DNA from: Pseudomonas sp. GM78
GTDB lineage: Bacteria; Pseudomonadota; Gammaproteobacteria; Pseudomonadales; Pseudomonadaceae
Reading direction: 5' to 3'
DNA length: 64,000 nt
NCBI RefSeq assembly: GCF_000282475.1
Contig: NZ_AKJF01000095.1
Span: 22,111-86,110 of the forward strand
The position numbers and the translations under genes are program-made. The first letter of the stretch is position 1; every line of letters starts with the position of its first letter. The notes under the pieces are model-generated. The model saw nothing but the letters and a program-made list of their open reading frames with translations. It had not been told where the DNA came from and searched no databases. Below are positions 1,988-51,171 of this stretch, in pieces.

Positions 1988-2248
1988 ATGGACGAAGCCC
2001 TGCATATAGCCAGCCTTGTGGTACATGCCCGCCCCGAACTTTTCGACGCCGTCAAAGCCAACCTGCGTCTATTGGAAGGCGTGGAACTGCATCAGGAAAG
2101 TGCTGCCGGGAAACTGGTGGTAGTCCTTGAGACCGTACACGAAAACCAGATCCTGCAACGCATCGATCAAATCAGCAATCTTCCGGGCGTGCTCAACGCT
2201 GCGCTGATCTATCACGAAATTCTCGATTCCGCGGGAGACATCCAATGA
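1988..2248 (+). CDS. napD: NapD, cytoplasmic chaperone for the NapA Tat signal
   Basis: An 86-residue NapD family protein. [12 protein letters not shown] at the N-terminus and [13 protein letters not shown] near the C-terminus are the two conserved NapD segments of the ferredoxin-like fold that binds the NapA twin-arginine signal peptide and delays export until the cofactor is loaded. ATG 1988 is chosen because TGGAG sits 7 bases upstream; an in-frame TTG at 1976 lacks an SD. Its stop overlaps the napA start (ATGA), indicating translational coupling. napF, often found just before napD in pseudomonads, is absent. Confidence 0.9.
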
Positions 2249-4749: not shown

Positions 4750-4760
4750 GGAGAACCGCC

Positions 4761-5246: not shown

Positions 5247-5255
5247 GGAGGCGCC

Positions 5256-5852: not shown

Positions 5853-5856
5853 CGGT

Positions 5857-6525: not shown

Positions 6526-6633
6526 CGCGCTTATTCCTTCAATGGCGAGATCGGTATGGCGCTATCTTCCTCCCTTGGCGGAAAAACAGAACTTGCATTC
6601 TTTAATGATGAGTATCGAGGGAATGAATGATTG

Positions 6634-8817: not shown

Positions 8818-9904
8818 GCTGTCTCTCCCTGTCCCGGGGGTTGTCTTGCAGGCCTTCATAGCGGCCCAGATTGATGGTGATGGTGGTGTTTTCACGGGCC
8901 TGCCAGGCGTCACTGCCCAGGCCCAGCACCGCGGTCATGCCGAGCAACACCTGCGCGCGCCCCAACAGCGGTCGCGGCAGGCTGTGCAGGGGCAACGACA
9001 ACTGCAGCTTTGCCGTGCAACGCCAGCCCAGGTACACGCGCAGCAGTACCAACAGATCGTTGTACAACTGGCCACCCGGCAGCCAGCCACGGGCCTCGTT
9101 CCGGTCTTCGGTGAACAGCGCCAGGTGCAGCTGACTGTTGGCGTCGTAGCCGACACGGCCCAAGGGTGTGCCCTGGGACAAGCGCACCGGATGCCCGGCG
9201 GACAGGCTCGCCGGTTGCGCCAGCAGCACTTTCTGCGGCCAGTGTGGCGTCACTTGCGTTCGGGTTTCGGGGGCCAGCAGCTTCACCAGCGCAGCGATGC
9301 CTTCGGCGTTGCGGGTGGGCAGGCGCATCACGCTGAGCAAGGCGAGGAAGCGTGATATCGGCGTGGCGACCTGCCTGGCCGTTCCAGGGATGCCCAGGCC
9401 GATCAGGCCCAACAGGCATTGCGAGGTTGCGTCCGTTCCACCGGCTTCGAAGGTGGCCGGATAGGAGTACTTGCGCCATATCCGGTAGAACTGGGTGAAG
9501 ATCCGATGGTTGAAAATATCGAGGAAAGCTTCCAGTGCCTCGTGCCCCTCGCGTCGCTGGGCGATATCGTCGAGAAAAGCCGTCGGCAACGGCGAGTCCA
9601 CGCCGTACAGGCCCAACAGGCGCGTGCGCACCGTAGCTGGACGCCAAGGGTGTTCATCGTCGGTTTCAATGGCCTTCAATTCACCGGCGGGAAAACCCAT
9701 GCCGGGGTCTGGTCGAAAGCGCACCGGGTCATCCGCCGGCGACGTGGTGCTGCCAAGTGGCGGGTGATCGGGCAGCGCCTGTTCGAGCAACTGGCAGAAG
9801 CGATACAGATGCGCCTCGGCCACCTGCTCCTGCAGTGCATCGAGTAAACCGCTGGCTTTCAGCCGGGAATACGCTGACTGTGGTTCTCGTTCCATCGCAG
9901 GCAC
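8798..9904 (-). CDS. tssG: TssG, T6SS baseplate protein
   Basis: A 368-residue TssG/VasB/ImpH protein. Diagnostic parts are an N-terminal helix with LYRFCQLLEQA, RFRPDPGMGFPAGE, then FLDIFNHRIFTQFYRIWRKYSY, the strongly conserved TssG block containing FNHR, and LLGLIGLGIPG. TssG forms the baseplate wedge with TssF and TssE. It overlaps tssF by 46 bp and tssJ by 20 bp. ATG 9895 (MEREP) is an alternative start three codons in. Confidence 0.93.
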   Translation of the reverse strand: MPAMEREPQSAYSRLKASGLLDALQEQVAEAHLYRFCQLLEQALPDHPPLGSTTSPADDPVRFRPDPGMGFPAGELKAIETDDEHPWRPATVRTRLLGLYGVDSPLPTAFLDDIAQRREGHEALEAFLDIFNHRIFTQFYRIWRKYSYPATFEAGGTDATSQCLLGLIGLGIPGTARQVATPISRFLALLSVMRLPTRNAEGIAALVKLLAPETRTQVTPHWPQKVLLAQPASLSAGHPVRLSQGTPLGRVGYDANSQLHLALFTEDRNEARGWLPGGQLYNDLLVLLRVYLGWRCTAKLQLSLPLHSLPRPLLGRAQVLLGMTAVLGLGSDAWQARENTTITINLGRYEGLQDNPRDRERQHVTYRF

Positions 9905-11628
9905 TTTCCAGTAGGTTGCAGGATCAGCGTGAGCTGGTTGTAGAGGTGGATGTCGGCGTACAGGCCGAAGAAGCGGTTGAGCATTTCGCCGAACAGACTG
10001 ATGTCGCCCTCACCGCTGAAGCCGTTGGCGTCCAGGGTGACTTCGATATCCACCCCGCGCAGCAGAAAGCCTTTTTCGAAGCGCTGCACCAGGTGGTGGC
10101 CAACCTCGACAATCGCCGCCAGGCGACGTCGGTTCAGCTCGCTGCCCGTCCAGTCGTACAACGCCAGCGTGCCGCGCAGCACTTCGGCATTGTCGAGCAT
10201 CGGCAGGAAGTTCGACCCCAGGTGGCTCAGCACCCGCCAGTGGAAGCGGTCGCGGTTGGGCGGATAGCACGGCAAGGTCGGCGCGCACAGGTTGCGCACC
10301 CGCAAGTCGACCTGAATCGATTGCACCGGCGTATCGAGCAAGGTGCCTTGCAGTGCCTTGCGCGGCAGCTGGCCGTGGGTGCCGGTCAAGCGCAGAGACA
10401 GGCTTTCGCTGGCATTCAGCCGATCCTGATCGAACCCTTCGCCGCCCAGGATCAACCAGGTGTCATGCAAGCCATTCGGGCCACGCTTGAGTCGGGTATG
10501 GAAATAACGCTCGGGCGCTTCGTCACGCAACATCCCGCCCTTGTGACGAAAGCTGGTGAATGGCACGTATTCGTGGCGCACGGCACTTTTTGACGCGCTG
10601 ACCCTATCCACCGAGTAGATCTCCGTATGACCGTCCTGCAAGCGCATGGGGCGAAGCAAGTAGTCGGTTTGCAGGGGTGCCAGGGTCATCGGGTCGGAAT
10701 CCAACGTGAATAGATTGATCACCGGCACGCAATGCAGGCGAATGTGCTCGGCACTCGGCGTGAATGCCGGTGGCAATGGCTCGCGCAGCACCACCTCGAG
10801 TTCGAACCAGGGGGTATTCGGTGCCAGCGCCAGGTGCTCGAGCCCGCAGAGGGTCACGAACATGAATTTCTCACGAAAGGTGAAATACTCCAGCAACAGC
10901 TGATAGCCGCTGAAGGCACTGTCGCCCTTGGGCCACAATCGATCGTCATCGGCAAACCCCTTGGGCGAAAAATAACCCTCCAGCAGAGAGCGGCCCGCCT
11001 GGTCAGGCAGGCGTACATACAAGGCTTGAGCGTTGAGGGTCAGCGCCTGGTGCAGTGCACTGGCCAGCGGTGCGTCGGCGTTGAGGTACAACGGCAGGCG
11101 GCTCAGGTCGATCTCGCTGGTATCGGCCATTGCCCCGCAGGTAAACCGCAGTCGCAGCAGCGAGCGACCATCCGGTTCATGGGCCATCTGCACGCGTTCG
11201 AGGGCCAGCGGCTGTAACGTCAGGCCCTGGGTGGTGGTATAGCGGCAACGGGTGCGCAGCGGTCCGATGGGTTGCGACAGCACTTCGAATCCGCTATCGA
11301 TGCGCTCGCTGCGTTTCATCTGTGGAAGCTCGGGCGTCAGCTCGACAATCGAAAGCGATGGAATGGTGCGCAGATAGTGTGGCCAGAGCAGGCTGACCAG
11401 GCCTTCGGTCAGCTCCGGCAGGTCATCGTCGAGTTTTTCGCGCAACCGCCCCATCAGGAAGGCAAACCCTTCAAACAGGCGCTCCACATACGGGTCGCGC
11501 GCGCCCGACTTGTCCAGGTTCAGCTGGGCCGCCCGGTCCGGAAACGCTTCCGCAAACTCCTTGCCAGCCTCGCGCAGGTAGCGCATTTCGGCGTCGAAAT
11601 ACTGCAATGTCAGATTATCGATGCTCAA
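9859..11628 (-). CDS. tssF: TssF, T6SS baseplate protein
   Basis: A 589-residue TssF/VasA/ImpG protein. The start LQYFDAEMRYLREAGKEFAEAFPDRAAQL is highly typical (YFDAEM, LRE, F-A, P..A). RDPYVERLFEGFAFLMGRLREKLDDDLPELTEGL is the conserved first block, and YVPFTSFRH lies in the middle. It lies 24 bp after tssA and overlaps tssG. Length is normal for the family (about 580-620). Confidence 0.95.
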   Translation of the reverse strand: MSIDNLTLQYFDAEMRYLREAGKEFAEAFPDRAAQLNLDKSGARDPYVERLFEGFAFLMGRLREKLDDDLPELTEGLVSLLWPHYLRTIPSLSIVELTPELPQMKRSERIDSGFEVLSQPIGPLRTRCRYTTTQGLTLQPLALERVQMAHEPDGRSLLRLRFTCGAMADTSEIDLSRLPLYLNADAPLASALHQALTLNAQALYVRLPDQAGRSLLEGYFSPKGFADDDRLWPKGDSAFSGYQLLLEYFTFREKFMFVTLCGLEHLALAPNTPWFELEVVLREPLPPAFTPSAEHIRLHCVPVINLFTLDSDPMTLAPLQTDYLLRPMRLQDGHTEIYSVDRVSASKSAVRHEYVPFTSFRHKGGMLRDEAPERYFHTRLKRGPNGLHDTWLILGGEGFDQDRLNASESLSLRLTGTHGQLPRKALQGTLLDTPVQSIQVDLRVRNLCAPTLPCYPPNRDRFHWRVLSHLGSNFLPMLDNAEVLRGTLALYDWTGSELNRRRLAAIVEVGHHLVQRFEKGFLLRGVDIEVTLDANGFSGEGDISLFGEMLNRFFGLYADIHLYNQLTLILQPTGKCLRWNENHSQRIPG

Positions 11629-39248: not shown

Positions 39249-40166
39249 TCAATTCAAACCGCGGGACGCCAGAAACGCCGCGATGTAATCAATGAACGCC
39301 AACACCTTGGCCGTGGCCCGCCGATGGCTCGGGTACACCGCCAGGATGTGCGGGCCGAAGCTGTCCGGGTCGATGTCATAGTCGGCCATCACCCGCACCA
39401 GTCGCCCATCGGCGATATACGGCGCCGCACTCCACAACGGCGTATGCAGCAACCCCCGCCCGGCCAGGGCATTGGCCAGCAACAAGTCGTAGTTATCGCT
39501 GCGCAAGCGTGGCGCCTGGGGCTGCGCCAGGCTCAACCGCTGGCCGTCGCGCTCGGCCCACCAGAATTCGCGGCTGAGCAACGGATGGCGATACAACAAC
39601 CATTCGTGCTCATCGAGAGTCTGCGGGGTGACCGGCAGCCCCTTGCGCGCCAGATATTGCGGGCTGGCACACAGCGCCAGGCGATTGCTGCCGACGACAC
39701 GGGCGATCAGCCCCGGCAAGTCGTCATGGCCTTCGCGCAAGGCCAGGTCGTAGCCACTCTCCAGAAGATTGACGAAGTCATCGCACAAGTCCACTTGCAG
39801 GTTGATCTGCGGGTATTGCTCCAGAAAGCCGCCACATACCTGATCGAGAAAAGCCTGCCCATAGGCCAGCGGCGCAGTGATTTTCAGGCTGCCGCGCAAA
39901 CCATGCTGCAACTGCTCGATTTCCTCTCCAGCCTCGTCCAGTCGCTGCAACACCTGGCGCGCGGTTTCCAGGTAGAGCCGCCCGGATTCCGTGAGCGAAA
40001 TCCGCCGGGTACTGCGCTCGAACAAACGCGCGCCAAGTTCCGCCTCCAGGTGATTGACCGCTTTGGTCAGGGCCGACGGGGTCTTGCCCAATTGCTCGGC
40101 GGCGCGACTGAAACTGCCCAGTTGTGCCGTGACCACGAACATTTTCAGTGCACCCAGCTTGTCCAT
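39249..40166 (-). CDS. LysR-family transcriptional regulator
   Basis: A 305-residue LysR protein. The N-terminal HTH is MDKLGALKMFVVTAQLGSFSRAAEQLGKTPSALTKAVNHLEAELGARLFERSTRR. The effector domain includes GSLKITAPLAYGQAFL and LESGYDLALREGHDD. ATG 40166 follows a purine-rich GGAAAAAG. It is divergent from the YtcJ-like amidohydrolase gene at 40270, so it probably regulates it. The open frame extends far upstream, but that part lies over the divergent gene. Confidence 0.9.
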   Translation of the reverse strand: MDKLGALKMFVVTAQLGSFSRAAEQLGKTPSALTKAVNHLEAELGARLFERSTRRISLTESGRLYLETARQVLQRLDEAGEEIEQLQHGLRGSLKITAPLAYGQAFLDQVCGGFLEQYPQINLQVDLCDDFVNLLESGYDLALREGHDDLPGLIARVVGSNRLALCASPQYLARKGLPVTPQTLDEHEWLLYRHPLLSREFWWAERDGQRLSLAQPQAPRLRSDNYDLLLANALAGRGLLHTPLWSAAPYIADGRLVRVMADYDIDPDSFGPHILAVYPSHRRATAKVLAFIDYIAAFLASRGLN

Positions 40167-40269
40167 TCTTTTTCCATTCAGGCAAAAACGTTTTTCGTGA
40201 GTGAGGCGTTCTGCCGAGCGCGGCAAGCCACTAATCTGGCCATCAGACGCAATAACAAGGAAACATTCA

Positions 40270-42012
40270 ATGAAAAGATTCATCCCGAATCTATTAATGC
40301 TGGCCGTCAGTTTTGCCTCGTTGGAAGCCATGGCGGCGACTGACCTGGTGCTGTTCAACGGCAAGATCTTCACCGCCGACCGCGACCAGCCCAAGGTCCA
40401 GGCACTGGCGGTACAGGACGGCAAAGTGCTGCAAGTGGGCAGCGATGCGCAGATCAAGGCCCTGATCGACTCGGGAACCCAGGTCATCGACCTGGGTGGC
40501 AAGACGCTGATGCCAGGCCTGATCGACAGCCACTCCCACGCGATTTTCGGCGGATTGGAGATGGGTTCGGCCAACATGGAAGATGAGGTGGTCGACCTGG
40601 ACGAGCTGGAAAAACGCCTGCTGGCTTGGCGTGAAGACGGCAAGGCCAGGCACGGCGACGTCCTGAGCGTGGCCGGCATGAGTTCGACCTATTGGGCGCA
40701 GGCCCAAGACCTGGGCAAAAAATTCAACAGCGGCGAATGGGCCGCGGTGCCCGTGGTATTCATCGGCAGCGACCATCACACGGCCTGGGCCAACAACGTG
40801 ATGCTCAAACGCGCAGGCATCGATGCCGCGCTGCTGAAAAACCTGCCAGACGCCGAGAAAGACACCATTGGCAAACTCGCCGACGGCAGCCCCAACGGCT
40901 TCCTCGTGGACGCCGGCTGGGACCGGGTCGCCTCGAAAATGCCCTCGCCGAGTGCCGCCGACCTGCTCAAGGCGGCGCAAACCGCCGTGAGCTACAACAA
41001 CAGCCTCGGCATCACCGCCTGGATGGACCCCGCTGCCAACGCCGCGCCTGGCGAGCCGGTGTTTGCCATGAAGCCCACGGAGAACACCGTCGGCGTGCTG
41101 CCGACGTACAAGGCGTTGGCCGAAAGCGGTGGCATGACCGCCCACGTCGCCGCGCTATTGGTGGCCAATTCGAAAAGCGTGCCCGCCGATCTCGACACCC
41201 TGGACAAGGTCCGCCAACAGTTCCAGGGCATCCCCAACCTGACGCTGCCCGGCATCAAGATCTTCGCCGACGGCGTGATCGAATACCCGGCCCAGAGCGC
41301 CGCGATGATCGACCCTTACACCAACTCGCACAAACCGGGCGAACTGTTGATCGATCCGAAACACTTCGGCGAACTGATCAGTGCCATCGATCAGCGCGGC
41401 TGGCTGGTGCACGTCCATGCCATCGGCGACCGCGCGGTACGCGAATCGCTGAACGGCATCGCCCAGGCACGCAAGGACCGGCAGAGCGGCGTGACCCACT
41501 CCATCACGCACTTGCAGATCGTCAATCCGAAAGAGTTCGCCCGCTTCAAACCGCTCGACGTCATCGCCTCGATGCAACTGCTCTGGGCCAGCGCCGACGA
41601 CTACACCACCGGCATGATCAAGCCATACGTCAGTGCCCTGGCGTTCCGTTACCAGTACCCGGCGCACTCGTTGCTCAAACAGGGCGCGACCATCGCCGGG
41701 GCCAGCGACTGGGCCGTGTCTTCGCCCAACCCGTGGAACGCCATGGCCCAGGCCATCACCCGGGAGGGTCCGCTCGGTGTGCTCAACGCCGATGAACGCA
41801 TCGACCGCGAAACCATGTTCTACGCCTACACCCTCAATGCCGCACGCACCATTGGCCTGGACAAACAGATCGGCTCGCTGAGCGCCGGCAAGCAGGCCGA
41901 CTTCATCGTGGTGGATCGCGATGTGTTCAGCGTCGACGAGAAAGCCCTGCACGACACTCAAGTGCTGCAGACCTGGTTCGCCGGTCGGCAGGTCTACGCG
42001 CCAACCCTCTAA
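40270..42012 (+). CDS. Exported YtcJ-like amidohydrolase
   Basis: A 580-residue amidohydrolase with an N-terminal signal peptide (residues 1-22, cleavage near EAMAAT). Motifs: HSHAIFG (HxH), GSDHHTAW, HVHAIGDRA, SITHLQIVN and ASDWAVSSPNPW (late Asp). The YtcJ subgroup fits the length and the ASDW-PNPW block. The reaction is hydrolysis of a C-N bond in an unknown amide. ATG 40270 has AAGGA upstream. It is expressed with the divergent LysR regulator upstream and the TorF-like porin gene downstream. Confidence 0.88.
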   Translation: MKRFIPNLLMLAVSFASLEAMAATDLVLFNGKIFTADRDQPKVQALAVQDGKVLQVGSDAQIKALIDSGTQVIDLGGKTLMPGLIDSHSHAIFGGLEMGSANMEDEVVDLDELEKRLLAWREDGKARHGDVLSVAGMSSTYWAQAQDLGKKFNSGEWAAVPVVFIGSDHHTAWANNVMLKRAGIDAALLKNLPDAEKDTIGKLADGSPNGFLVDAGWDRVASKMPSPSAADLLKAAQTAVSYNNSLGITAWMDPAANAAPGEPVFAMKPTENTVGVLPTYKALAESGGMTAHVAALLVANSKSVPADLDTLDKVRQQFQGIPNLTLPGIKIFADGVIEYPAQSAAMIDPYTNSHKPGELLIDPKHFGELISAIDQRGWLVHVHAIGDRAVRESLNGIAQARKDRQSGVTHSITHLQIVNPKEFARFKPLDVIASMQLLWASADDYTTGMIKPYVSALAFRYQYPAHSLLKQGATIAGASDWAVSSPNPWNAMAQAITREGPLGVLNADERIDRETMFYAYTLNAARTIGLDKQIGSLSAGKQADFIVVDRDVFSVDEKALHDTQVLQTWFAGRQVYAPTL

Positions 42013-42033
42013 TAAAAACCGCCCCCTGCCCGA

Positions 42034-42055
42034 CCTCGTGCTTTTCAACACGAGG
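42034..42055. terminator. Short stem-loop between amidohydrolase and porin genes
   Basis: CCTCGTG (42034-42040) pairs with CACGAGG (42049-42055) around an 8-nt loop. There is no T-run, so termination is uncertain; it may instead separate expression of the two genes. Confidence 0.3.
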
Positions 42056-42114
42056 TACGGCGCAGCCTTGCCCTATTTCTGCCCATAACAATCACAATAG
42101 CGGAACGCCCCTCC

Positions 42115-42852
42115 ATGAAAGCTTTCACCCTGTTCGCCCTCGGTTCCTTGAGCCTGCTGCCTTTGAGCAGCCAGGCCATCCCCTTGAACGATGATTTCGC
42201 CCTGCTGCTGGACGTGACCCTGGCCAGCGACTATCGCACCCGCGGCATCTCGCAGACCCAGAACGACCCCGCATTGCAGGCCGGTGCAACCCTGGCCCAC
42301 AGCAGCGGCCTGTACCTGGGCGCATGGACTTCCAACGTCGACTTTGGCGGTGGCCTGAAAACCCGCCAGGAGGTCGATTACTACGCCGGTTGGATGTGGC
42401 AGGCCACCGATGACGTCAGCCTCGACCTGGGCTACCTCAAATATGCTTACCCGAAAGAAAGCCAATTCAACCAGAGCGAGGCCTACGGCATTCTCAGCGT
42501 CTACGGGGTGAAACTCGGAGCCTATTACTCCGCCGATGCGCCGGGTATCGATAGCGAGCAAAACTCGCTCTACAGCTATGTCGGCTACGAAACCGAGTTG
42601 CCCTACGACATTGGCCTGAAACTGCGTTACGGCGACATGGACTTCAAGGATCCGCACCTGTACTCACGCTCGGGTGAGGCTGAAGACTCGTACCGGGAGT
42701 GGGAGGTCAAGCTGACCCATGAACTGGCAGGCGTGATGCTGGGCCTGAGCTACATCGACACCGACCTGTCGAAGAGCCAGTGCCTCAGTAATTGGGGCTT
42801 CGACGATGTGTGCAGCGCGACGGTAGTGGCGAGCGTCAGCAAATCCTTCTGA
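42115..42852 (+). CDS. TorF-family outer-membrane porin
   Basis: A 245-residue exported protein with signal peptide (MKAFTLFALGSLSLLPLSSQA). The mature part is a beta barrel opening DVTLASDYRTRGISQTQNDPALQAG, the standard TorF start, and ends with aromatic Phe after VVASVSKSF. It lies 102 bp downstream of the YtcJ-like gene. TorF porins are thought to aid uptake, and the pairing with the exported amidohydrolase suggests linked substrate entry. Confidence 0.88.
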   Translation: MKAFTLFALGSLSLLPLSSQAIPLNDDFALLLDVTLASDYRTRGISQTQNDPALQAGATLAHSSGLYLGAWTSNVDFGGGLKTRQEVDYYAGWMWQATDDVSLDLGYLKYAYPKESQFNQSEAYGILSVYGVKLGAYYSADAPGIDSEQNSLYSYVGYETELPYDIGLKLRYGDMDFKDPHLYSRSGEAEDSYREWEVKLTHELAGVMLGLSYIDTDLSKSQCLSNWGFDDVCSATVVASVSKSF

Positions 42853-42866
42853 GCACCACCGCCCTT

Positions 42867-42968
42867 GGAGGAGCGAGGCTTGCCCGCGATGGACTTAAGA
42901 GCGCCGCGTTCAGCCAGGAACCACGCGTTGCCGTTAACGACCATCGCGAGCAGGCTCGCTCCTACAGG
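42867..42968. repeat. REPIN between porin gene and DUF971 fragment
   Basis: GGAGGAGCGAGGCTTGCCCG (42867 on) and the inverted GAGCAGGCTCGCTCCTACAG at the other end. It lies between torF and the DUF971 fragment at the left edge of the island. Confidence 0.85.
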
Positions 42969-43249
42969 TTTTGAGTTAATCCTTCAAGATAGGCCCAGGG
43001 GTAGATCCCCCGTTCATGTCCATCACTGAACACCAGCTGCACCCCATACCCCTGCGAATTCACCTCGATCAGCCGAACGCGGGCATCGACCAGCGGCGGC
43101 GTCCCGCGCAATCGAAACGCTTGGCACTGCGAGCACGGGCACTGGCGGCGCAACTCGGCATGATCCAGCCACTGCTCGCGGCCATCCGGCCAGTCTAAGC
43201 GCAGCTGCAGTAATCGCTGATGGCTGCGTTTTTCACTTCTGCTAGTGAC
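42962..43249 (-). pseudogene. DUF971 gene copy lacking a start codon, left boundary of the microcin island
   Basis: The open frame from 43249 to 42962 encodes a near-complete DUF971 protein (LRLDWPDGREQWLDHAELRR, QCPCSQCQAFRLRGTPPLVD, GVQLVFSDGHERGIYPWAYL). It is preceded in frame by TAA at 43250-43252, and no ATG, GTG or TTG precedes the conserved part; a TTG start at the usual Leu within the domain would remove the first strand. The intact copy at 48310-48585 has MNPVAVGNSRSR before this region. Translation from a CTG cannot be excluded. Its 212-bp overlap with the other copy defines the direct repeat. Confidence 0.7.
42994..43205. repeat. Left member of a 212-bp direct repeat flanking the microcin island
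   Basis: Aligned by eye to 48333-48544 without gaps, with about 13 mismatches in 212 bases (roughly 94 percent identity). Both copies lie in the same orientation within DUF971 sequence, so this is a duplicated gene part and not an insertion-site short repeat. Confidence 0.85.
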
Positions 43250-43627
43250 TTATTCAAAAAAAGAGGACTACCGCTTGTCACTTTTTTATTGAAAAAATAG
43301 AGATTAAATAAAATCACCGCCCATCAAAAAATGGAAATCGCACATTTTTTCCTACAGCAATTCTTTACCAGCGCAAGCAAATTTTTCTCCCACTGCAAGA
43401 AACTAAAACTCAATCTATTTAAAGACTTCCAAAACCACATTTCTAAAATTCACACCCCTAAACCAAAGCAAACAACTCTCGCTTCCCAAAAACATGTAAG
43501 ACACGTCCGAAAAACCAGAAGAAACTTCCTACAGCACAAAAAACCCATCCCTTGCACCAAAAATCAAAAGAGACTAAACCTGACGACACCACTTAATCCC
43601 AAGTGGCGAACACAACGAGTGAACACA
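43250..43627 (+). other. AT-rich upstream region of the microcin operon
   Basis: About 380 bases without a convincing gene. An ORF from 43331 runs in frame into the precursor but is Lys/His/Phe-rich with no domain and no SD. TTGTCA at 43275, TTGAAA at 43289 and TAAAAT at 43309 are possible promoter parts, but their spacings are not ideal. I believe E. coli mcbA also has a long untranslated leader, so a similar arrangement is plausible here. Confidence 0.4.
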
Positions 43628-43855
43628 ATGAAAAACAATGAACTTGGAAAAATACTCTTCAACTTCAGAAGTGATTATGGATCAAGCACCAATCCTCAAG
43701 TAGCTGGAGGTTCAGGAGGTCAAGGAGGATGTGGGGGGAGTGGCGGATGTGGTGGAGGGGGTGGATGCAGCGGTGGTAGTGGTGGCGGCCCTGGTGGATG
43801 TGGTGGGGGTGGAGGCACTGGTGGCGGTAGCACTGGTGGTTCTAAAGGTACGTGA
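43628..43855 (+). CDS. mcbA: McbA-like microcin precursor peptide (thiazole/oxazole-modified)
   Basis: A 75-residue peptide. Residues 1-26 act as leader: N4-E5-L6-G7-K8-I9-L10 matches the E. coli McbA leader pattern E-F-G-V-V-L, with Leu6 in place of Phe8 and Leu10 in place of Leu12, the two positions McbB is known to read. Residues 27-75 form a Gly-rich core with four Cys (35, 41, 47, 58), six Ser and three Thr, including a Cys47-Ser48 and a Ser68-Thr69 pair that could become fused bis-azoles. One Pro (55) and a C-terminal KGT differ from McbA. ATG 43628 is preferred over the upstream in-frame codons because of this leader match. Confidence 0.9.
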   Translation: MKNNELGKILFNFRSDYGSSTNPQVAGGSGGQGGCGGSGGCGGGGGCSGGSGGGPGGCGGGGGTGGGSTGGSKGT

Positions 43856-43871
43856 ATGAAAACCCCATAAC

Positions 43872-43889
43872 AAAACTGTCCGCAGTTTT
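43872..43889 (+). terminator. Intercistronic hairpin 1, probable partial terminator after mcbA
   Basis: AAAACTG (43872-43878) and CAGTTTT (43883-43889) pair perfectly around TCCG, ending in a short T-run. Placed 17 bases after the precursor stop, it could end most transcripts so that far more precursor than enzyme is made. Confidence 0.5.
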
Positions 43890-43895
43890 AGGCAG

Positions 43896-43922
43896 AAGGA
43901 TCTTTCACTACGAAAGGTCCTT
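43896..43922 (+). promoter_or_regulatory. Intercistronic hairpin 2, upstream of mcbB
   Basis: AAGGATCTTTC (43896-43906) pairs with GAAAGGTCCTT (43912-43922) around ACTAC, 11 bp with one G-U pair. It sits directly before the strong SD AGGAGGAG of mcbB, so it could protect the precursor mRNA end or gate mcbB translation. Confidence 0.45.
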
Positions 43923-43935
43923 TAGGAGGAGTTAA

Positions 43936-44820
43936 ATGCAACTGACATTCTCAGAATTTGACATCATAAACCTTCCAGAAAACGAGTCACTGATAATCTC
44001 CACACACGGCACATCAAAAACCGAATCAAAAAAATTATTGAACATCCTACAGAAACTAAAAAACCAGGAAAATTTTAGCATCTCGAAGTCGCAACTCAAT
44101 AAAATTGTCTCCACGCACAACCTACCACTAAAAGACACTTACTTATTCTTGAGTCAAGCGATAGGACTGAAAACCCAACCATCGGAAATATATTTCAAAA
44201 AGGTACTGATAGCACATGACCGGCACAACCAGAACGAATTCGAAGCAATAATAGATCAAGAAATAAAGTACAATCATGAAATATTCAGCAACATGAATCA
44301 TTTAATTGACCGAGCGAAGGATGAGGCACATCTAATTATAATAATTTGCATGCAATATAACTACTCAAAAATTAAAAAACTATACTTTTGTTTGGCAGAG
44401 TCATCCCCAAGCAGCGCTATCTCAATAGCGTACTTGAGCGGAAACATCTTTCGTATAAGCCAACCGTACATCCCTATTATTGGCAACGCCTGCCACTTCT
44501 GCCTCATAGAAAGGCAGTTAAATTACGAAAGAATCCACGAAAGTCGAAACTCTTGGTCAGCATTGTTGAATTTCTGTGTTGATCGACACGTAACCATACC
44601 AACACAACATTTAAGCTTATTACAGAGAAACCTAGCGATAGGCACTTTGATAAAAAAAATCAAACTCCACACTGAGCACAATCAAGAATTCCGATACCAG
44701 GACAACTCTCTTGCATCAATGAGTGTAGATATAAACAACGGACTAATTACGGAAGAGTTGAGTCCTCACTGGCACTCTTGCACCTGCCTGAGATCTAAAC
44801 ATGAAAAATATTCCGCATGA
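43936..44820 (+). CDS. mcbB: McbB-like leader-binding/cyclodehydratase partner protein
   Basis: A 294-residue protein matching McbB in length (295 in E. coli) and position. A zinc-type pattern is visible: GNACHFCLIERQ (Cys186, Cys189) and HWHSCTCLRS (Cys282, Cys284) near the C-terminus. The N-terminal part is likely the peptide-clasp fold that holds the McbA leader. It forms the synthetase with McbC and McbD. A strong AGGAGGAG SD precedes ATG 43936. It overlaps mcbC by 20 bp. AT-rich codon use (Lys AAA, Ile ATA) is unlike the host genes. Confidence 0.88.
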   Translation: MQLTFSEFDIINLPENESLIISTHGTSKTESKKLLNILQKLKNQENFSISKSQLNKIVSTHNLPLKDTYLFLSQAIGLKTQPSEIYFKKVLIAHDRHNQNEFEAIIDQEIKYNHEIFSNMNHLIDRAKDEAHLIIIICMQYNYSKIKKLYFCLAESSPSSAISIAYLSGNIFRISQPYIPIIGNACHFCLIERQLNYERIHESRNSWSALLNFCVDRHVTIPTQHLSLLQRNLAIGTLIKKIKLHTEHNQEFRYQDNSLASMSVDINNGLITEELSPHWHSCTCLRSKHEKYSA

Positions 44821-45592
44821 CTACTACATTAAATTCAGCGACCCAAAAGTCAGCGAAGACGTCTTGGATTTTCACAACAAAGGTAATTTCACCATCCATG
44901 ACTGCGTCAAAAACATTTCTTCGCTGCACAACCTCCCAGAACATTTGCTCTCAGATTTGACAGGAAATGAACTGCAAATATACCCTGACATGGATATCAC
45001 GACAAATGAACCTATACTCGACACGCTTGCAACTTCAAGCCCACTCTATCGAAATCAATCATGTGATTTTTTTGATGCGAGCGGCATTGCTTTTGAATCA
45101 ATAAAGAAACTAATTAGCCCATTACTAAGAAAAGACGAAACCACGAACAAAAGAGGTTACCCGAGTGCGGGCGCACTTTACTCAGTTGAAGTGTTTTGCT
45201 GCTCCCTATCACCCGACAACACATGGCCTTGTAGTGAAAAAATATTACACCTACTACCAAACTCTAGAAAATTTGAAGTAATACAGGACAGTTTCGACAA
45301 TAGCTTATTGACAGAGGCGATATTACCCCAAGGACACAAAATTGGAAATCCTAGCGTAGCCATTATTTACGCCATGTACATCCCGAAAACATTGTTCAAA
45401 TATCGCTATCGTGGATACAGACTAGCTCTCATGGAAATCGGTTCAATGTACATGCTAGCCGACCTCCAATGCAAACACTTAAATCTCAAAAGCCGTCAGT
45501 GGTCTGGGTATACCGACAACATGCTGTGCAGAGCACTGGGCTTAAATCCAACTCTTTTCTTCCCTTCGTGCGTACACTTAATTGGTGCCTAA
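44801..45592 (+). CDS. mcbC: McbC-like flavin dehydrogenase (SagB family)
   Basis: A 263-residue nitroreductase-fold enzyme that oxidises azolines to thiazoles and oxazoles. The FMN-binding KRGYPSAGALYSVEVF is the SagB/McbC signature, and KYRYRGYRLALMEIGSMYMLADL carries the Lys-Tyr pair just before RGYR that is catalytically important in related dehydrogenases. It overlaps mcbB and lies 2 bp before the likely TTG start of mcbD. E. coli McbC has 272 residues. Low GC matches the rest of the island. Confidence 0.88.
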   Translation: MKNIPHDYYIKFSDPKVSEDVLDFHNKGNFTIHDCVKNISSLHNLPEHLLSDLTGNELQIYPDMDITTNEPILDTLATSSPLYRNQSCDFFDASGIAFESIKKLISPLLRKDETTNKRGYPSAGALYSVEVFCCSLSPDNTWPCSEKILHLLPNSRKFEVIQDSFDNSLLTEAILPQGHKIGNPSVAIIYAMYIPKTLFKYRYRGYRLALMEIGSMYMLADLQCKHLNLKSRQWSGYTDNMLCRALGLNPTLFFPSCVHLIGA

Positions 45593-45594
45593 AA

Positions 45595-46797
45595 TTGAAA
45601 ATTTCAACGCATAACTATGATTCGTCGCTACCTGGGCAAATGTGGTATCAGCCCCCATGTACTTTTGAGTTCCCATTTTGCTCTGAAATCAGTGATCAAT
45701 GGAACTCCATAGGTTCAGGAATCGGCACAAGCTCAACATCAGTAAAAGCCGCCTTAGGCGAATACTTTGAGAGGCGTCATTTCCATCTAGAAATATTGCC
45801 AGATAGCTATTCTAGCCTAGAGAAAAAACTCACACCAAATGAGGTAAAAAAATTCATTAAAGCATTCAATCAAACCGCATCGAAAAATACGAATCTAACA
45901 TGTTTGAAAAGTCGAAAATTAAATATGATTTCAGCCACACGCATTTCTGATTTTTCAGCCTGCGCAATCCCGTCTGTATGTATTTCTCTTACGCACGACA
46001 AAAGTGAAGACAACAAGATCTACCCCAATCGTGACACTTGCGGGTGTAGCTTTCATTGGAATTCAGAATCTGCCGTACTTGGTTCTATCAAAGAATCATT
46101 GGAGCGCCAATTTCTCACGCGATTCTGGCTAACCAATCAATATAAAGGAATAATTGACGCAAATGAGATACCAACCAGGATAAAAACGCTTCCTTCTTAT
46201 GGACTCTTCAACGCCTTAAAAAAATCAGGACAATTGCTAACAATTGACATTTCTGACGAAAAATTTCCAGGAGTATGTCTACTGACAATTTACGGCGCCA
46301 ACGACCCGACTCGAAACGTTCAGTATTGCGCAGGTATGTCGTACTCAGAAAACCGATCTGAAGCGCTGGATAAATCCATCCTTGAATTATGGCAAACATT
46401 CAGATTTATGAATTTATTCAGGGTGTTGCGTGGTAACACAGACTCTCTTGAAGACTCTTATATTCGTCACTTTCTAAAATGCAACTCATACAAGACCTTC
46501 GAGGAAATCTCATCAAAAATTGATTACGCGCTCATATCACGCAACGAAATCCAACCATCCAAACTAAACATTGAAACCCTAATCAGAAGCCTGAGAACAC
46601 AAAATATTGAAGGTTACCTTTACATAAAAGCCGTAAAAATAGACAACATCAAATATACTTTCTGCAAGTTCATCTCACCCTCATTATTTATGCACATGAA
46701 CAACTCAAAAAACATAAACATAGACAACGACTACTCAGCCTCTTTTCTACCCGCAATAAATGAAGACAGAAAAGAAAAAATGGTCCCATTCCCCTAG
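45595..46797 (+). CDS. mcbD: McbD-like YcaO cyclodehydratase
   Basis: A 400-residue YcaO-domain ATP-dependent enzyme that activates the precursor backbone to form azolines. ALGEYFERRHF, YPNRDTCGCSFHWNSE, GMSYSENRSEALDKSILELWQ and the C-terminal MVPFP are all shared with E. coli McbD. The frame is open from 45469, but those codons overlap mcbC in another frame; TTG 45595, two bases after the mcbC stop, gives a 52-residue N-terminus before the YcaO block, as in E. coli (396 residues). GTG 45568 is the alternative. Assignment of family is very secure; start is not. Confidence 0.92.
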   Translation: MKISTHNYDSSLPGQMWYQPPCTFEFPFCSEISDQWNSIGSGIGTSSTSVKAALGEYFERRHFHLEILPDSYSSLEKKLTPNEVKKFIKAFNQTASKNTNLTCLKSRKLNMISATRISDFSACAIPSVCISLTHDKSEDNKIYPNRDTCGCSFHWNSESAVLGSIKESLERQFLTRFWLTNQYKGIIDANEIPTRIKTLPSYGLFNALKKSGQLLTIDISDEKFPGVCLLTIYGANDPTRNVQYCAGMSYSENRSEALDKSILELWQTFRFMNLFRVLRGNTDSLEDSYIRHFLKCNSYKTFEEISSKIDYALISRNEIQPSKLNIETLIRSLRTQNIEGYLYIKAVKIDNIKYTFCKFISPSLFMHMNNSKNINIDNDYSASFLPAINEDRKEKMVPFP

Positions 46798-46809
46798 AGA
46801 AAATTGATC

Positions 46810-47553
46810 ATGAGCAAAAATATCCCCCCCAGAGTTCTGACCCTAACATCAATATTTATGAAAGAGCAACTAAAAGAACCCGTCGCCTTCTTCTGGATCA
46901 TGATATCACCATGTGCAATGTTCTACTTTTTTGCAGTCACCAGGCAAGACCCCAACTATTACCTGAACAACTACACATCAACATCAGCATGGTTCTATGC
47001 CTACATCTCATCTAGCGTCGCATTGTTTGGATTTGCCTTCTACATCATCGGAAGAAGAGAAAGCGGATTCACCCGGTCATTTATCTACTCCCAAGACTCG
47101 AAACTTATTTTTCTTTTGTCGCACTTCCTTGCATACTCTTTGATTTCTATAGCATATTGCACCACTTTTTACCTGACAACCAAACTCCCGTTCGGGGACT
47201 ACTCCGCAATTGAGCTACTTAATATAGCGCTACGCTTTTACATTTGCTTCATCATGTTTTGCACTTTTGGCGCAGCATTTTCATTGCTGCCAATAAATTT
47301 TCAAAACTCGAATACATTGCTATCCATTTTTTCGTTCTGCATGCTGATTCTCGGCGTGATGAGTACCAGCACAGCCAACTACATCACCGACAACCTAAAC
47401 CTTGCAAACCCTCTAACACTTGCAAGCCAGTTAATGGCGCAAGGCATTGAATCCAACAAGCTCATTACATGCACAATAATTACTTTATTTATTATAGCGC
47501 TGCACAAAACCTTCAAGCACCTAAGAATAAACCCCGTATGGAGTCGATACTAA
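46810..47553 (+). CDS. mcbE: McbE-like ABC export permease
   Basis: A 247-residue membrane protein with about six helices (for example FFWIMISPCAMFYFFAV, FYAYISSSVALFGFAFYIIG, LLSIFSFCMLILGVMST), ABC-2 type. ATG 46810 is 12 bp after mcbD. Together with the next gene it would export the mature microcin and so give self-protection. E. coli McbE has 241 residues. Its TAA overlaps the mcbF ATG (TAATG). Confidence 0.85.
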   Translation: MSKNIPPRVLTLTSIFMKEQLKEPVAFFWIMISPCAMFYFFAVTRQDPNYYLNNYTSTSAWFYAYISSSVALFGFAFYIIGRRESGFTRSFIYSQDSKLIFLLSHFLAYSLISIAYCTTFYLTTKLPFGDYSAIELLNIALRFYICFIMFCTFGAAFSLLPINFQNSNTLLSIFSFCMLILGVMSTSTANYITDNLNLANPLTLASQLMAQGIESNKLITCTIITLFIIALHKTFKHLRINPVWSRY

Positions 47554-48272
47554 TGAGAAAATTCAAGGCGCAGAACATTGATTTCGCCTACCCAAACACT
47601 CCTCTTTTGACCCAGGCTTCCCTCGAAGTATCCCAGGGTGAAATCGTCGGCATCTTAGGACCCAACGGATCAGGCAAAACTTCTTTTTTTGACATTGCAT
47701 GTGAACTTAAACAAGCAAACTCAGGTTTGATAAAAAACGACTTCAGTCACTTCCTATATCTCTCTCAAATCATCAGCACTCCCCCGCCGCTTCGCATGCG
47801 TGATATTTTTAAAATGGTGACTGCATTATCTTCAAGCGAATCCATGACACAAGAAAAAACGTTGAAAAAACTATCCACATGGAGTCCTGCGATAGTGAGC
47901 CGCTACCAAAATATATGGAACAAAAAATCGGCGCTGTGCAGTTACGGAGAAACGCGCTGGTTCTTCACCCTCACGCTCCTTTCAATGTCTGCAGACTTCG
48001 TGGTGCTCGACGAACCGACTGCGGGTGTCGACCCGGAGTTTCGTCACTATATTTGGCAATGCCTTCACGGCGCGGCACAGGAAGGCACTGCCATTCTGGT
48101 TTCTTCTCACAATGTCGAGGAGGTGATCAGCCACTGTGATTATTTCTATATGATCAGCCAACAACGCTTCAATCGCTTCGCCAATGGAAACGAATTCATG
48201 CATCGGTATGGAACAAAGACTGTGGATGATGCATTTATCCGAGCCGTTACTGAACCTGTATTCGCAGCATAA
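47553..48272 (+). CDS. mcbF: McbF-like ABC exporter ATPase
   Basis: A 239-residue ATPase. Walker A GPNGSGKT at residues 36-43; signature-like SYGETRW in place of LSGGQ; Walker B FVVLDEPTAGVDP; H-loop SSHNVEEV. ATG 47553 has GGAG at 47540 and overlaps the mcbE stop; the E. coli protein has 247 residues. Base composition changes within the gene: the first half is AT-rich like the island, and the part after about 47935 is close to host GC. No gene follows before the DUF971 repeat. Confidence 0.87.
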   Translation: MRKFKAQNIDFAYPNTPLLTQASLEVSQGEIVGILGPNGSGKTSFFDIACELKQANSGLIKNDFSHFLYLSQIISTPPPLRMRDIFKMVTALSSSESMTQEKTLKKLSTWSPAIVSRYQNIWNKKSALCSYGETRWFFTLTLLSMSADFVVLDEPTAGVDPEFRHYIWQCLHGAAQEGTAILVSSHNVEEVISHCDYFYMISQQRFNRFANGNEFMHRYGTKTVDDAFIRAVTEPVFAA

Positions 48273-48309
48273 GCCACTCGCGAATGCTGTTGATCATTTA
48301 ACGTCGATA

Positions 48310-48585
48310 TCAAGTTAAGGCTGCTAGATAGTCCCAGGGGTAGATCCCCCGTTCATGCCCATCACTGAACACCAGCTGCACCCCATACCCCTGCGAGTTC
48401 ACCTCGACCAACCGAACACGGGCGTCGACCAGCGGCGCCATCCCGCGCAATCGAAACGCCCGGCACTGCGAGCACGGGCACTGGCGGCGCAACTCGGCAT
48501 GGTCCAGCCACTGCTCGCGGCCATCCGGCCAGTTCAAGCGCAGCCGCTGCCTGCTGCGGGAATTGCCCACTGCCACCGGGTTCAT
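48310..48585 (-). CDS. DUF971 protein, intact copy at the right boundary of the island
   Basis: A 91-residue DUF971 protein (gamma-butyrobetaine hydroxylase N-terminal-like fold) with LRLNWPDGREQWLDHAELRR, QCPCSQCRAFRLRG and GVQLVFSDGHERGIYPWDYL. The Cys-x-Cys-x2-Cys in CPCSQC may bind a metal. It overlaps the HEAT-repeat gene by 4 bp (ATGA), showing that it is the operonic, native copy. Function in this operon unknown; DUF971 domains are sometimes linked to Fe-S handling. Confidence 0.88.
   Translation of the reverse strand: MNPVAVGNSRSRQRLRLNWPDGREQWLDHAELRRQCPCSQCRAFRLRGMAPLVDARVRLVEVNSQGYGVQLVFSDGHERGIYPWDYLAALT
48333..48544. repeat. Right member of the 212-bp direct repeat
   Basis: Ungapped partner of 42994-43205, about 94 percent identical, same orientation. 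It lies inside the intact DUF971 gene. Confidence 0.85.
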
Positions 48586-49544
48586 TGCAGCTGACTCAGG
48601 GCAATGCGCACTGCTTTGCGCACCTCGGGATCGCCATCGTCCTGCGCGGCCAGCAGCGGTGCGATAGCGCTTTTTTCATTCAGTTCGCCGAGGGCCAGGG
48701 CGGCTTCCTTGCGCAGGTTGCTGATGCGGTGGCCGAGGGTTTCGATCAGCGCGTCGAGGGCCGGGACGTAACGCAAGCGGCCGAGGCTGCGGGTGGCGCG
48801 CAGGCGCACTTGCCAGTAATCGTCGCTCAAGGCCTGGACCAATGCCGGGCCGGCGTCGATGTGGCCGACCTTGCCCAGGGTGGTGGCGGCTTCTTCGCGT
48901 ACTTGCCAGGCCTGATCCTGCAAGGCCTGGCGCAAGGCCGGCAGCACCTGTGCGTCAGAGGCCAGGCCGAGTGCTCCGGTGGCGGCGCGGCGCACTTCGG
49001 TGTCCGGGTCGGCACTGGCCAGTCGAGCCAGGGCCGGCAAGGCGTCGAGTTGTTTGAGCCAACCCAGCACGCCGACGGCTTCACGGCGGACATTGGCCTC
49101 CTGATCGCTTAACGCAACCAGCGCCGCCGGGGCCGCCTGCGGGTAGCGCAACTCGCGCAAGGCCCTGAACGCCGCAATGCGCACGCCGATGTCGGCATGC
49201 CCGGTCCACGGCAGGATCACCCCGCCCGCCGCTTCGCTCTTGAGCAGGCTGAGGCTTTGCGCGGCGGCGGCTTGCACCGCTGCGGATGGATCGGTCAGCG
49301 CCTGGCACAGCGCTTCGACCACAGGTTCATCCTCCCAGGCTTCCAGCAACCGCGCGGCTTCGGCGCGGACGTCTTCGGCCGGGTCCCCGGCCAATCGGTT
49401 GACCAGCCACAGCAGGCCGTCCGGCTCTTCCAGGTCGGCCAGTTCGATCAGGGCGATGCGGCGCACGCCGGCATCGTCGTCAGTCAGGCGCGGTTGCAGG
49501 GCGAGAATTTCATCGTTATCGGTTACATCGAATAGTGAGGTCAT
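48582..49544 (-). CDS. HEAT-repeat protein
   Basis: A 320-residue protein built almost entirely of HEAT/PBS-lyase-like helical repeats (for example DAGVRRIALIELADLEEPDGLLWLV, DPSAAVQAAAAQSLSLLK, DTEVRRAATGALGLAS, WQVREEAATTLGKVG, YWQVRLRATRSLGRL, DPEVRKAVRIAL). No catalytic residues are evident; it is probably a protein-binding scaffold. It overlaps both the ABC ATPase gene upstream and DUF971 downstream by 4 bp, so it belongs to the AprAB-like operon. Confidence 0.9.
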   Translation of the reverse strand: MTSLFDVTDNDEILALQPRLTDDDAGVRRIALIELADLEEPDGLLWLVNRLAGDPAEDVRAEAARLLEAWEDEPVVEALCQALTDPSAAVQAAAAQSLSLLKSEAAGGVILPWTGHADIGVRIAAFRALRELRYPQAAPAALVALSDQEANVRREAVGVLGWLKQLDALPALARLASADPDTEVRRAATGALGLASDAQVLPALRQALQDQAWQVREEAATTLGKVGHIDAGPALVQALSDDYWQVRLRATRSLGRLRYVPALDALIETLGHRISNLRKEAALALGELNEKSAIAPLLAAQDDGDPEVRKAVRIALSQLQ

Positions 49545-50389
49545 AGGGCAAATCGCGGCAGTTTGTTTTCAGGGGGAAGTCCGAGAGGGTTCAGGCGTGG
49601 CAGCTGCCGACCGTCTTCGTGACGCAGGAGTTCGAGGCAGTGACGTTTCAAGCGGGAAAATTCATGGCTGGTCACCAGTTCGGTGGTGCGTGGCCGGGGG
49701 AAATCCAGGCGCAGGTCTTCGATGATCCGACCGGGACGCGTGCTCATCACCAGCAGGCGATCGGCGAGGAACAGTGCCTCGTCGATGTCATGGGTGACGA
49801 ACACCACGGTGGTGCGAATCCGCGTCCAGATGTCCAGCAGCAGTTCCTGCATGTTCAAGCGGGTCAGGGCATCGAGAGCGCCGAACGGCTCGTCCATGAG
49901 CAATAGCCGTGGACGATTGACCAGCACCCGGGCGATTTCCACCCGTTGCTGCATGCCACCGGAGAGCTGGTCCGGCCAGCGCTCGGCGAAGCCTTCAAGA
50001 CCCACCAGGTTGAGGATTTCATCGGCGGCCTTGTGGCGTTCGGTTTTCTCGATGCCGCGCATTTTCAGGCCGAATGCAACGTTGTCGCGCACCGTGCGCC
50101 AGGGGAACAGTGTGTGTTGCTGGAACACCATGCCGCGTTGCGGCGACGGGCCGGACACCGCCGCGCCATCGACCTTGAGGCTGCCAGCGCGCGGTTGCAG
50201 GTGACCGGCCAGCGCACCGAGCAAGGTAGACTTGCCGCAACCGGACGGCCCGAGGATGCACACGAATTGCCCCGGTTCGATCTGGCAATCGAGGCCCTGC
50301 ACGGCTTCAAAGGCGGCACTGCCCTCGCCCAGGCTGATCGACAGACCGCGGATATCGATCCGCCCTTCAGGCTGTTGAAACACACTCAT
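49541..50389 (-). CDS. ABC transporter ATPase, nitrate/sulfonate/taurine type (SsuB/TauB-like)
   Basis: A 282-residue ATPase. Walker A GPSGCGKST, signature LSGGMQQRVEIARVL, Walker B LLLMDEPFGALD, H-loop FVTHDIDEA; these fit the SsuB/TauB/NrtD group. ATG 50389 shares one base with the permease stop (TGATG). The longer open frame upstream lies in the permease gene. It powers the importer formed with the next two genes. Confidence 0.92.
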   Translation of the reverse strand: MSVFQQPEGRIDIRGLSISLGEGSAAFEAVQGLDCQIEPGQFVCILGPSGCGKSTLLGALAGHLQPRAGSLKVDGAAVSGPSPQRGMVFQQHTLFPWRTVRDNVAFGLKMRGIEKTERHKAADEILNLVGLEGFAERWPDQLSGGMQQRVEIARVLVNRPRLLLMDEPFGALDALTRLNMQELLLDIWTRIRTTVVFVTHDIDEALFLADRLLVMSTRPGRIIEDLRLDFPRPRTTELVTSHEFSRLKRHCLELLRHEDGRQLPRLNPLGLPPENKLPRFAL

Positions 50390-51171
50390 CAGGCTTTTCC
50401 TCGTGGTCGATGCCAAGGCGTGAACACGCCGCCCAGGCGTTTGATCAGCAGACTGCTGCCCATCCCGAGTACGCCGATCAGCAACATGCCGACCACGATG
50501 TCGGGGTAGTTCTGGATGGTGTAGGACTCCCAGGTGTAATAGCCGATGCCGTACTGGCCGGAGATCATCTCGGCGGTCACCAGGCAAAACCACGAGGTGC
50601 CCATGCCGATGGCAAGGCCGGTGATGATGCTCGGTGCGGCACCCGGCAGAATCACTTCCAGCAGCATCGCCCGGCGCCCTGCCCCAAGGCTTTTGGCCGA
50701 GGCGATCAACCGGGGATCGACGCCTTCGACGCCATGCACGGTGTTGAGCAGGATCGGGAACAGGGCACCGGTAAAGGTGATGAAGACCATCGACAGCTCG
50801 GACGAGGGGAACATCAGGATCGCCAGGGGAATCCAGGCCACGGCGGGGATTGGGCGCAGCACTTCCAGCGGTGGCAGCAACAGGTCTTCGGCCCATTTCG
50901 AGCGGCCGATGGCCAGGCCCAGGGCAACGCCGATGACCAGCGCCGCGAGGTAACCGGCGAAGACCCGGCTGAGGCTGCTGCCAAGGTGCCGGGCGAGCTT
51001 GCCGGAGTCACCCAGGCCCAGCGCCGCTTCAATCACGGCCAGCGGGGTCGGGACGTTGGCGAAAGTCACCAGGCCGAGGTTCCAGTGGTGGCTGGCGGCG
51101 AGTTGCCAGAATAGAAGGCAGAGCAGCAGTGAGGCTGCCCTCGGAATCCAGCGTAAAAATGATCCGTACAC
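50389..51171 (-). CDS. ABC transporter permease (SsuC/TauC-like)
   Basis: A 260-residue membrane protein with six helices and EAA loop ASAKSLGAGRRAMLLEVILPGAAP. Start GTG 51171 is chosen because GAGGA precedes it by 7 bases; the open frame upstream runs through a REPIN (51196-51286) and is not coding. The REPIN lies between this gene and the binding-protein gene. Confidence 0.9.
   Translation of the reverse strand: MYGSFLRWIPRAASLLLCLLFWQLAASHHWNLGLVTFANVPTPLAVIEAALGLGDSGKLARHLGSSLSRVFAGYLAALVIGVALGLAIGRSKWAEDLLLPPLEVLRPIPAVAWIPLAILMFPSSELSMVFITFTGALFPILLNTVHGVEGVDPRLIASAKSLGAGRRAMLLEVILPGAAPSIITGLAIGMGTSWFCLVTAEMISGQYGIGYYTWESYTIQNYPDIVVGMLLIGVLGMGSSLLIKRLGGVFTPWHRPRGKA

Follow-up and report, generated by a model that had tools for sequence, protein, structure and literature searches.

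How does a Pseudomonas chromosome come to hold a peptide-antibiotic operon of the microcin B type, and what might its product act on? The question is raised by a stretch of 64,000 nucleotides from Pseudomonas sp. GM78 (hereafter the window), in which six open reading frames (ORFs), all without internal stops, lie on the + strand between positions 43628 and 48272 and correspond to the mcbA to mcbF genes of the E. coli microcin B17 plasmid, pMccB17. We read this locus, with a probability of about 0.8, as an operon for a linear azole-containing peptide (LAP) antibiotic, of the microcin B-like kind that lacks mcbG, carried on a small mobile cassette.

The identity of the six genes is clear at the level of sequence. 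A microcin B-type azole peptide locus with the mcbA-F gene order had been recognized in an earlier, sequence-only reading of this DNA, and the matches to TIGR04424, to PDB entry 6gos and to the pMccB17 proteins bear this out (Table 1). The motifs listed in that reading were recovered as well: CHFC and CTC in McbB, PSAGALYSVEVF in McbC, and EYFERRHF, YPNRDTCGCSFH and a terminal MVPFP in McbD. It had also considered that the enzymes might group with another azole family; the best PDB match of McbB, McbC and McbD was in each case the synthetase of E. coli microcin B17 (6gos, along with three other entries), a likeness far in excess of chance. In an alignment of McbD proteins, RDTCGC and the terminal MVPFP are invariant in 13 of 13 rows. 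The starts given for mcbD (45595), mcbE (46810) and mcbF (47553) are not those of the longest ORFs and were placed from adjacent stops and from relatives; the longest mcbD ORF (442 amino acids) overlaps mcbC and was judged too long, hence the choice of the TTG at 45595.

The chemistry can be inferred by analogy with E. coli. The mcbB product would serve as scaffold and leader-binding protein of the cyclodehydratase, holding the McbA leader while McbD, with ATP, would close Cys, Ser and Thr residues to azolines, which McbC would oxidize to azoles. Host TldD/TldE would then remove the leader, most simply after Ala26, and McbE-McbF would pump the peptide out and confer immunity. Genes of the TldD/TldE family (PF01523) are found at three places in the genome, two of them sharing one contig. 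An SbmA importer was also sought; the two PF05992 matches in the genome carry an ATPase domain, and no plain SbmA was found. A scan for promoters and terminators was uninformative (7 and 7 sites, where 9.6 and 6.1 were expected). The operon is real and probably works as an antibiotic locus, as far as its genes allow this to be judged.

The manner of its arrival can be read from a related genome. Genome G264, of the same species, has neither McbD nor McbE and carries a single PF06155 gene at the place that in the window is taken up by a truncated copy of this gene, the operon-bearing cassette and an intact copy. Window positions 40001-43208 and 48326-51000 align to positions 2146-5342 and 5121-7795, respectively, of the empty-site locus L120, with an overlap of 222 bp between the two alignments. 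This overlap is a target duplication; in the window it lies within a direct repeat of 235 bp (92%) at positions 42974 and 48313. Besides mcbA-F the insert contains no ORF longer than 90 amino acids, an ORF of 174 amino acids being mcbA with an upstream extension.

Table 1. Features of the mcb cassette and of its insertion site (window coordinates)
Feature	Position	Strand	Description
Left arm of 222-bp target duplication	42987-43208	-	Truncated copy, 3' end of PF06155 (DUF971, GBBH-like_N) gene
Inserted cassette	43209-48325	+	5117 bp; GC 0.413 versus 0.64 and 0.625 in the flanks
mcbA	43628-43855	+	ATG; precursor of 75 amino acids; 26-residue leader (inferred cut) and 49-residue core GGSGGQGGCGGSGGCGGGGGCSGGSGGGPGGCGGGGGTGGGSTGGSKGT
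mcbB	43936-44820	+	ATG; 294 amino acids; AGGAGG close upstream; CxxC...CxC; TIGR04424 7.3e-84; 6gos McbB 2e-17
mcbC	44801-45592	+	ATG; 263 amino acids; putative azoline dehydrogenase (FMN enzyme by analogy); 6gos McbC 2.6e-36
mcbD	45595-46797	+	TTG (inferred); 400 amino acids; YcaO cyclodehydratase; C-terminal MVPFP; PF02624 1.7e-13; 6gos McbD 3.9e-59
mcbE	46810-47553	+	ATG; 247 amino acids; exporter membrane subunit; 29% identity, 1e-28 to pMccB17 McbE
mcbF	47553-48272	+	ATG, start overlaps mcbE stop; 239 amino acids; exporter ATPase; 29%, 3e-39 to pMccB17 McbF; PF00005
Intact PF06155 (DUF971) gene	48310-48585	-	PF06155 4.6e-21; convergent with mcbF; right arm formed by its 3' part (48326-48547)

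A plasmid origin was considered and set aside: a blastn search of 72,556 plasmid records, at E 1e-5, gave no match. Relatives of McbD occur in 137 plasmid records, all below 60% identity and none from Pseudomonas.

Flanking repeats of this type are not confined to the window. In named genomes 43 mcb loci were found, 39 of them from Pseudomonas, and a draw of 398 genomes from the genus was searched for McbD and McbE; removal of duplicates left 55 unique loci, 51 from Pseudomonas (including the window) and four from enterobacteria. Four loci with flanks too short for the repeat test (L073, L074, L075 and L103) were left out. A direct repeat of at least 80 bp, sought in flanks of 1.2 and 0.8 kb, was present at 10 of the 51 testable loci, or 10 of 47 for Pseudomonas, the four enterobacterial loci all being negative. 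Control placements gave a repeat in 0 of 321 cases in the window and in 2 of 800 cases across eleven Pseudomonas genomes, of which twenty stretches of 20 kb were used, these placements overlapping and using both strands, so that they do not amount to 800 independent trials. A protein-level version of the test again returned 10 of 51 loci, against 2 of 160 controls, with P. moorei entering the set and Pseudomonas sp. GM74 leaving it. The ten loci are not independent of one another, as five share a nonribosomal peptide synthetase (NRPS) site and two the PF06155 site; they represent four downstream-neighbourhood groups and five target genes. The targets other than PF06155 are the NRPS gene (Condensation, AMP-binding and PP-binding domains), a PMT-family (ArnT-like) glycosyltransferase gene, an acyl-CoA dehydrogenase gene and a DUF6124 gene. 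All show the layout seen in the window, with an intact convergent gene beyond mcbF and, ahead of mcbA, a remnant of that gene's 3' end. The NRPS site is empty in genomes G045 and G025, and native adjacency of the upstream flank to the target gene was seen for the PF06155 and NRPS sites. Entry of the cassette at the 3' ends of convergent genes, with duplication of a long target, is evident at the PF06155 site and likely at some of the others.

Several observations weigh against so simple an account. No DNA-level flanking repeat was found at 41 of the 51 testable loci. The two repeat copies in the window match each other at 93% and the copy at the empty site of G264 at only 85-86%, suggesting that the history of the copies was not simple. 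At locus L059 the upstream flank does not adjoin the acyl-CoA dehydrogenase gene in the relatives G009 and G013, where it lies elsewhere. The upstream copy at locus L048 (positions 4434-4703 and 9649-9918, reverse strand), 270 bp long and 99% identical, takes in 139 bp from the end of mcbF together with the 3'-terminal part of the PMT gene, an arrangement that fits tandem duplication better; an earlier or tandem cassette may once have been present there. No empty site for L048 was recognized in 29 relatives. The repeats might, then, have been left by a tyrosine-recombinase element that has since lost its integrase, or by tandem duplication, a reading for which the mcbF tail at L048 speaks and with which the use of gene 3' ends by integrase elements is in keeping. 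We regard it as unlikely, given that the insert holds no further ORF of the size searched for, that repeat length varies between 112 and 639 bp over five different target genes, and that mcb sequence occurs inside the remnant at L048 only.

Two further observations concern such sites. On pMccB17 (L119, 2210-2304 and 9761-9876), short direct repeats (42 and 62 bp, 86-90%), 7.6 kb apart, surround the mcb operon and three more genes. At the NRPS site, genomes G110, G104, G102 and G024 (L225-L228, about 1.5-7.6 kb) have instead a gene of approximately 1500-1600 codons, with a small gene beside it in three of them; the large gene in L225 encodes PAAR, RHS and DUF4329 domains. The NRPS site may be a place where antibacterial cassettes lodge.

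Returning to insertion by long target duplication, the fate of the cassette after entry can be followed through its exporter. A search with an alignment of 14 McbE proteins gave matches in 65 of the 398 genomes of the genus draw, of which 8 weak ones (E 6e-6 to 1e-4) were dropped. The 57 genomes with strong matches include all 28 in which McbD was found. In the other 29, McbF adjoins McbE without exception and an intact mcbB, mcbC or mcbD was seen in none. Remnants of A, B, C or D persist in five of these exporter-only loci (G023, G139, G175, G297 and G322), that of G023 comprising a seemingly whole mcbA with the beginning of mcbB. In three more (G232, G275 and G277; junctions were compared in 4 of the 29), the first 24-37 nucleotides of mcbA are fused to the end of mcbD or to mcbE, so that the old upstream region would drive mcbEF. 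Exporter-only loci are about as common as full operons in the sample, and they look maintained by the measures of coding sequence applied: McbE has an internal stop only in G175 and G219, and the ratio of nonsynonymous to synonymous substitution rates was 0.10-0.20 in 7 of 9 hand-picked pairs of exporter-only McbE genes, two of the seven values being rough, with synonymous distances above 2, and the remaining two pairs being unscored owing to saturation of synonymous sites. Such maintenance fits a role of McbEF as immunity determinant.

The sites occupied are mostly the same. Twenty of the 28 exporter-only loci with enough flank (L292, one of the 29, had too little) sit at full-operon sites, eight at the PMT (ArnT-like) site and four each at the NRPS, MgtC and PF06155 sites; the other 8 matched none. 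The PF06155 site holds the full operon in the window, in GM74 and in P. moorei, the exporter alone in G232, G243, G275 and G277, and no cassette in G264 or in G002, the operon of the latter being located elsewhere. The cassette would often decay to mcbEF alone, giving rise to immune non-producers. It could be argued that exporter-only loci are not deletion derivatives at all but unrelated ATP-binding cassette (ABC) exporters, or ancestors of the operon: McbF is an ordinary ABC ATPase by profile, and no remnant of A-D was seen in 21 of the 29 loci, a count that counts against decay as well. The invariable adjacency of E and F, the pieces of biosynthetic genes kept at five loci and of mcbA at three more, and the coincidence of sites make this alternative very improbable.

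Some variation among these loci deserves record. In P. moorei an extra MFS-type gene adjoins the PF06155 remnant (L072, 4080-5390), and the exporter-only loci of G232 and G275 (L278 and L280) have an ORF of 413 amino acids at a place like that of this gene. Decaying mcb loci were encountered among the operons, too: in L057 mcbA is truncated, mcbC is reduced to its end and mcbB was not seen, L061 has a split mcbD, and L062 retains only the end of mcbD together with E and F.

How much of this was known already? The window operon is, by its gene content, a member of the published, mcbG-less microcin B-like kind found in Pseudomonas. In the excerpts from which we cite the literature here, PMC7136475 describes most pseudomonad mcb-like clusters as lacking mcbG, PMC8719888 reports the same for its Pseudomonas strains, PMC4603692 mentions microcin B17 clusters with divergent precursors from P. 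syringae, P. putida and P. fluorescens, and PMC3390384 an mcb-like region in strain A506. The window locus shares with the mcbG-less clusters (Group 2 of PMC7136475) the mcbABCDEF gene set, the genus, the absence of mcbG and a Gly-rich precursor that differs from that of E. coli outside the Gly-rich part; it differs from them in that the core end in its clade of five is longer (GGTGGGxTGG...) and an NAI-type tail is missing. What is new here is the mobile cassette with its target duplication and the occurrence of exporter-only loci at full-operon sites: neither is mentioned in the excerpts of these four papers, and neither exporter-only mcb loci nor an mcb target duplication appeared among the literature matches listed (open-licence literature, titles and abstract openings). 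Insertion with long target duplication has been described for restriction-modification genes (Nobusato 2000, as cited in excerpts of PMC1643837 and PMC3154945). The resemblance lies in a small gene set placed between long direct repeats of the target, with a single target copy in another strain; the differences are that an antibiotic operon is involved, in Pseudomonas, and that the targets are gene 3' ends.

The plasmid-borne E. coli operon provides the other standard of comparison. The two systems agree in the order and homology of genes A-F and in a Gly-rich precursor gene, with Cys and Ser ring sites, adjoining mcbB. The leader of E. coli McbA is 26 amino acids long, as is that of the window precursor if cut where we place the cut. 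They differ in the absence of mcbG here, in the extent of identity (25, 40 and 33% in the best segments of B, C and D, measured against the E. coli plasmid record L063) and in location, the window operon lying beside chromosomal-type genes and having no plasmid match. The core templates also differ, GGCGGSGGCGGGGGC here against GGSCGGQGGGCGGCSNGCSGG in E. coli. P. syringae microcin B shares genus and pathway with the window locus but does have mcbG (PMC8719888, in part).

Of the 51 Pseudomonas loci, all but L062 showed a precursor gene, and 45 of the 50 precursors conform to the template GGCGGSGGCGGGGGC[SNK]GGSGG. In five, the extended core end GGTGGGxTGG with a short tail replaces the NAI-like tail: those of the window, Pseudomonas sp. 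GM74, P. moorei, Pseudomonas sp. C1C7 and P. brassicacearum subsp. neoaurantiaca. A quick McbD tree was built from 49 of the 55 loci, after exclusion of L061 and L062 (broken or fragmentary) and of L077, L094, L108 and L109 (stop in the stretch read). Judged by the Shimodaira-Hasegawa-like approximate likelihood ratio test (SH-aLRT), the five form one clade (95) with a subclade of three (98), the P. brassicacearum row (L074) being a long branch whose placement is less sure, and the Pseudomonas rows separate from the four enterobacteria with a value of 100. The nearest McbD to that of the window is 74% identical. The sequence-only reading had called the precursor divergent, which is true with respect to E. 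coli McbA, yet it has four close relatives; its description of the product as previously undescribed stands for the exact peptide, no identical precursor being present among the loci examined, but not for a kind already published. The precursor of Pseudomonas sp. T1-3-2 (L097 / L051) has Gly and Ser in place of the first two Cys of the template, and its predicted rings would be mostly oxazoles; its McbD is the earliest, and a long, Pseudomonas branch.

The window core contains 4 Cys, 6 Ser and 3 Thr, with two adjacent ring-forming pairs (CS and ST), where E. coli McbA has three (SC, CS and CS). Adjacent cyclizable pairs are present in 26 of the 50 Pseudomonas cores and absent from 24, indicating that fused double rings are no constant trait of the group.

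These features bear on the target, as does the absence of mcbG, whose product in E. coli is a pentapeptide-repeat protein that protects gyrase. The locus had been described as complete, which is incorrect by the measure of E. coli mcbABCDEFG: a tblastn search with McbG gave no match in the window and, at Pseudomonas loci, a best E of 0.23, three of these loci (L073, L075 and L103) having less than 550 bp after mcbF, where a gene could be hidden. The same search matched two E. coli records and the loci of Mixta, Kosakonia, Erwinia and Tenebrionibacter (76% down to 42% identity for these four). An unlinked McbG was sought among pentapeptide-repeat places on three contigs of the genome (L002, L003 and L005), none of which is McbG-like (best tblastn E 0.9); one such place, on inspection, is an ORF of 233 amino acids with a signal-like stretch. 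Self-resistance through a change in GyrB was likewise rejected. The position matching E. coli K447, which we take to be a known resistance site, is K in all 28 McbD-carrying genomes. The position matching W751, a resistance site according to the excerpt of PMC10886550, is W in the same 28, so that neither known target change replaces McbG. With McbG missing, McbE-McbF is probably the main immunity, to judge from the genes present.

The claim that the product is a gyrase poison is so far unsupported, considering that a non-gyrase target has been called highly probable for mcbG-less clusters (PMC7136475, in part) and that nearly half of the family precursors have no adjacent pair, although that of the window has two. 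We lean slightly towards an inhibitor of translation, or of another non-gyrase target, that acts in the manner of klebsazolicin or phazolicin. The window core has a single Lys, unlike phazolicin, which is cationic, and the enzymes are McbBCD-type by sequence; both facts speak against this reading. In its favour, a gene set lacking a pentapeptide protein is that of the ribosome-targeting LAPs (PMC7136475), the same paper itself having been unable to establish the target. A remark in PMC10886550 that pseudomonad relatives may inhibit translation weighs little, since its source, Metelev 2013, is reported in PMC7136475 as describing products that target gyrase.

Action on DNA gyrase, as in classical microcin B, with McbEF alone or an unlinked protein protecting the producer, appears possible at somewhat less than even odds. 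Absence of McbG is no proof of another target, as E. coli has two further immunity genes besides it, and the CS pair in the Gly-rich window core could give a fused thiazole-oxazole; these points, with the homology of the synthetase, tell against a non-gyrase target, as does the gyrase-directed action of the P. syringae products (Metelev 2013, as reported in PMC7136475). The lack of mcbG and of any McbG-like pentapeptide locus, the precursors devoid of adjacent pairs and the argument of PMC7136475 for another target oppose it, while the unchanged W751 of GyrB counts neither way.

It seems conceivable that all of these elements belong together. The mcbG-less operons of Pseudomonas would then be recombinase-free cassettes for which long target duplication is the way into the 3' ends of convergent genes; at one site they would cycle through a producer state, a selected immune state in which mcbEF is expressed from the old promoter, and an empty state, the exporter being the sole immunity and the product not acting on gyrase. 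As a whole this picture is tentative and rather doubtful. The peptide taken alone is one more member of an uncharacterised, published group, and the pattern that surrounds it is of more interest. Related strains that have, at one chromosomal place, the whole operon, the exporter alone or neither constitute a natural experiment, in which the producer/immune/sensitive picture known from colicins could be tested for a modified-peptide antibiotic; the same strains are ready sensitive and immune testers for finding the target. The cassette would, furthermore, add an antibiotic operon to the restriction systems for which long-target-duplication mobility has been described.

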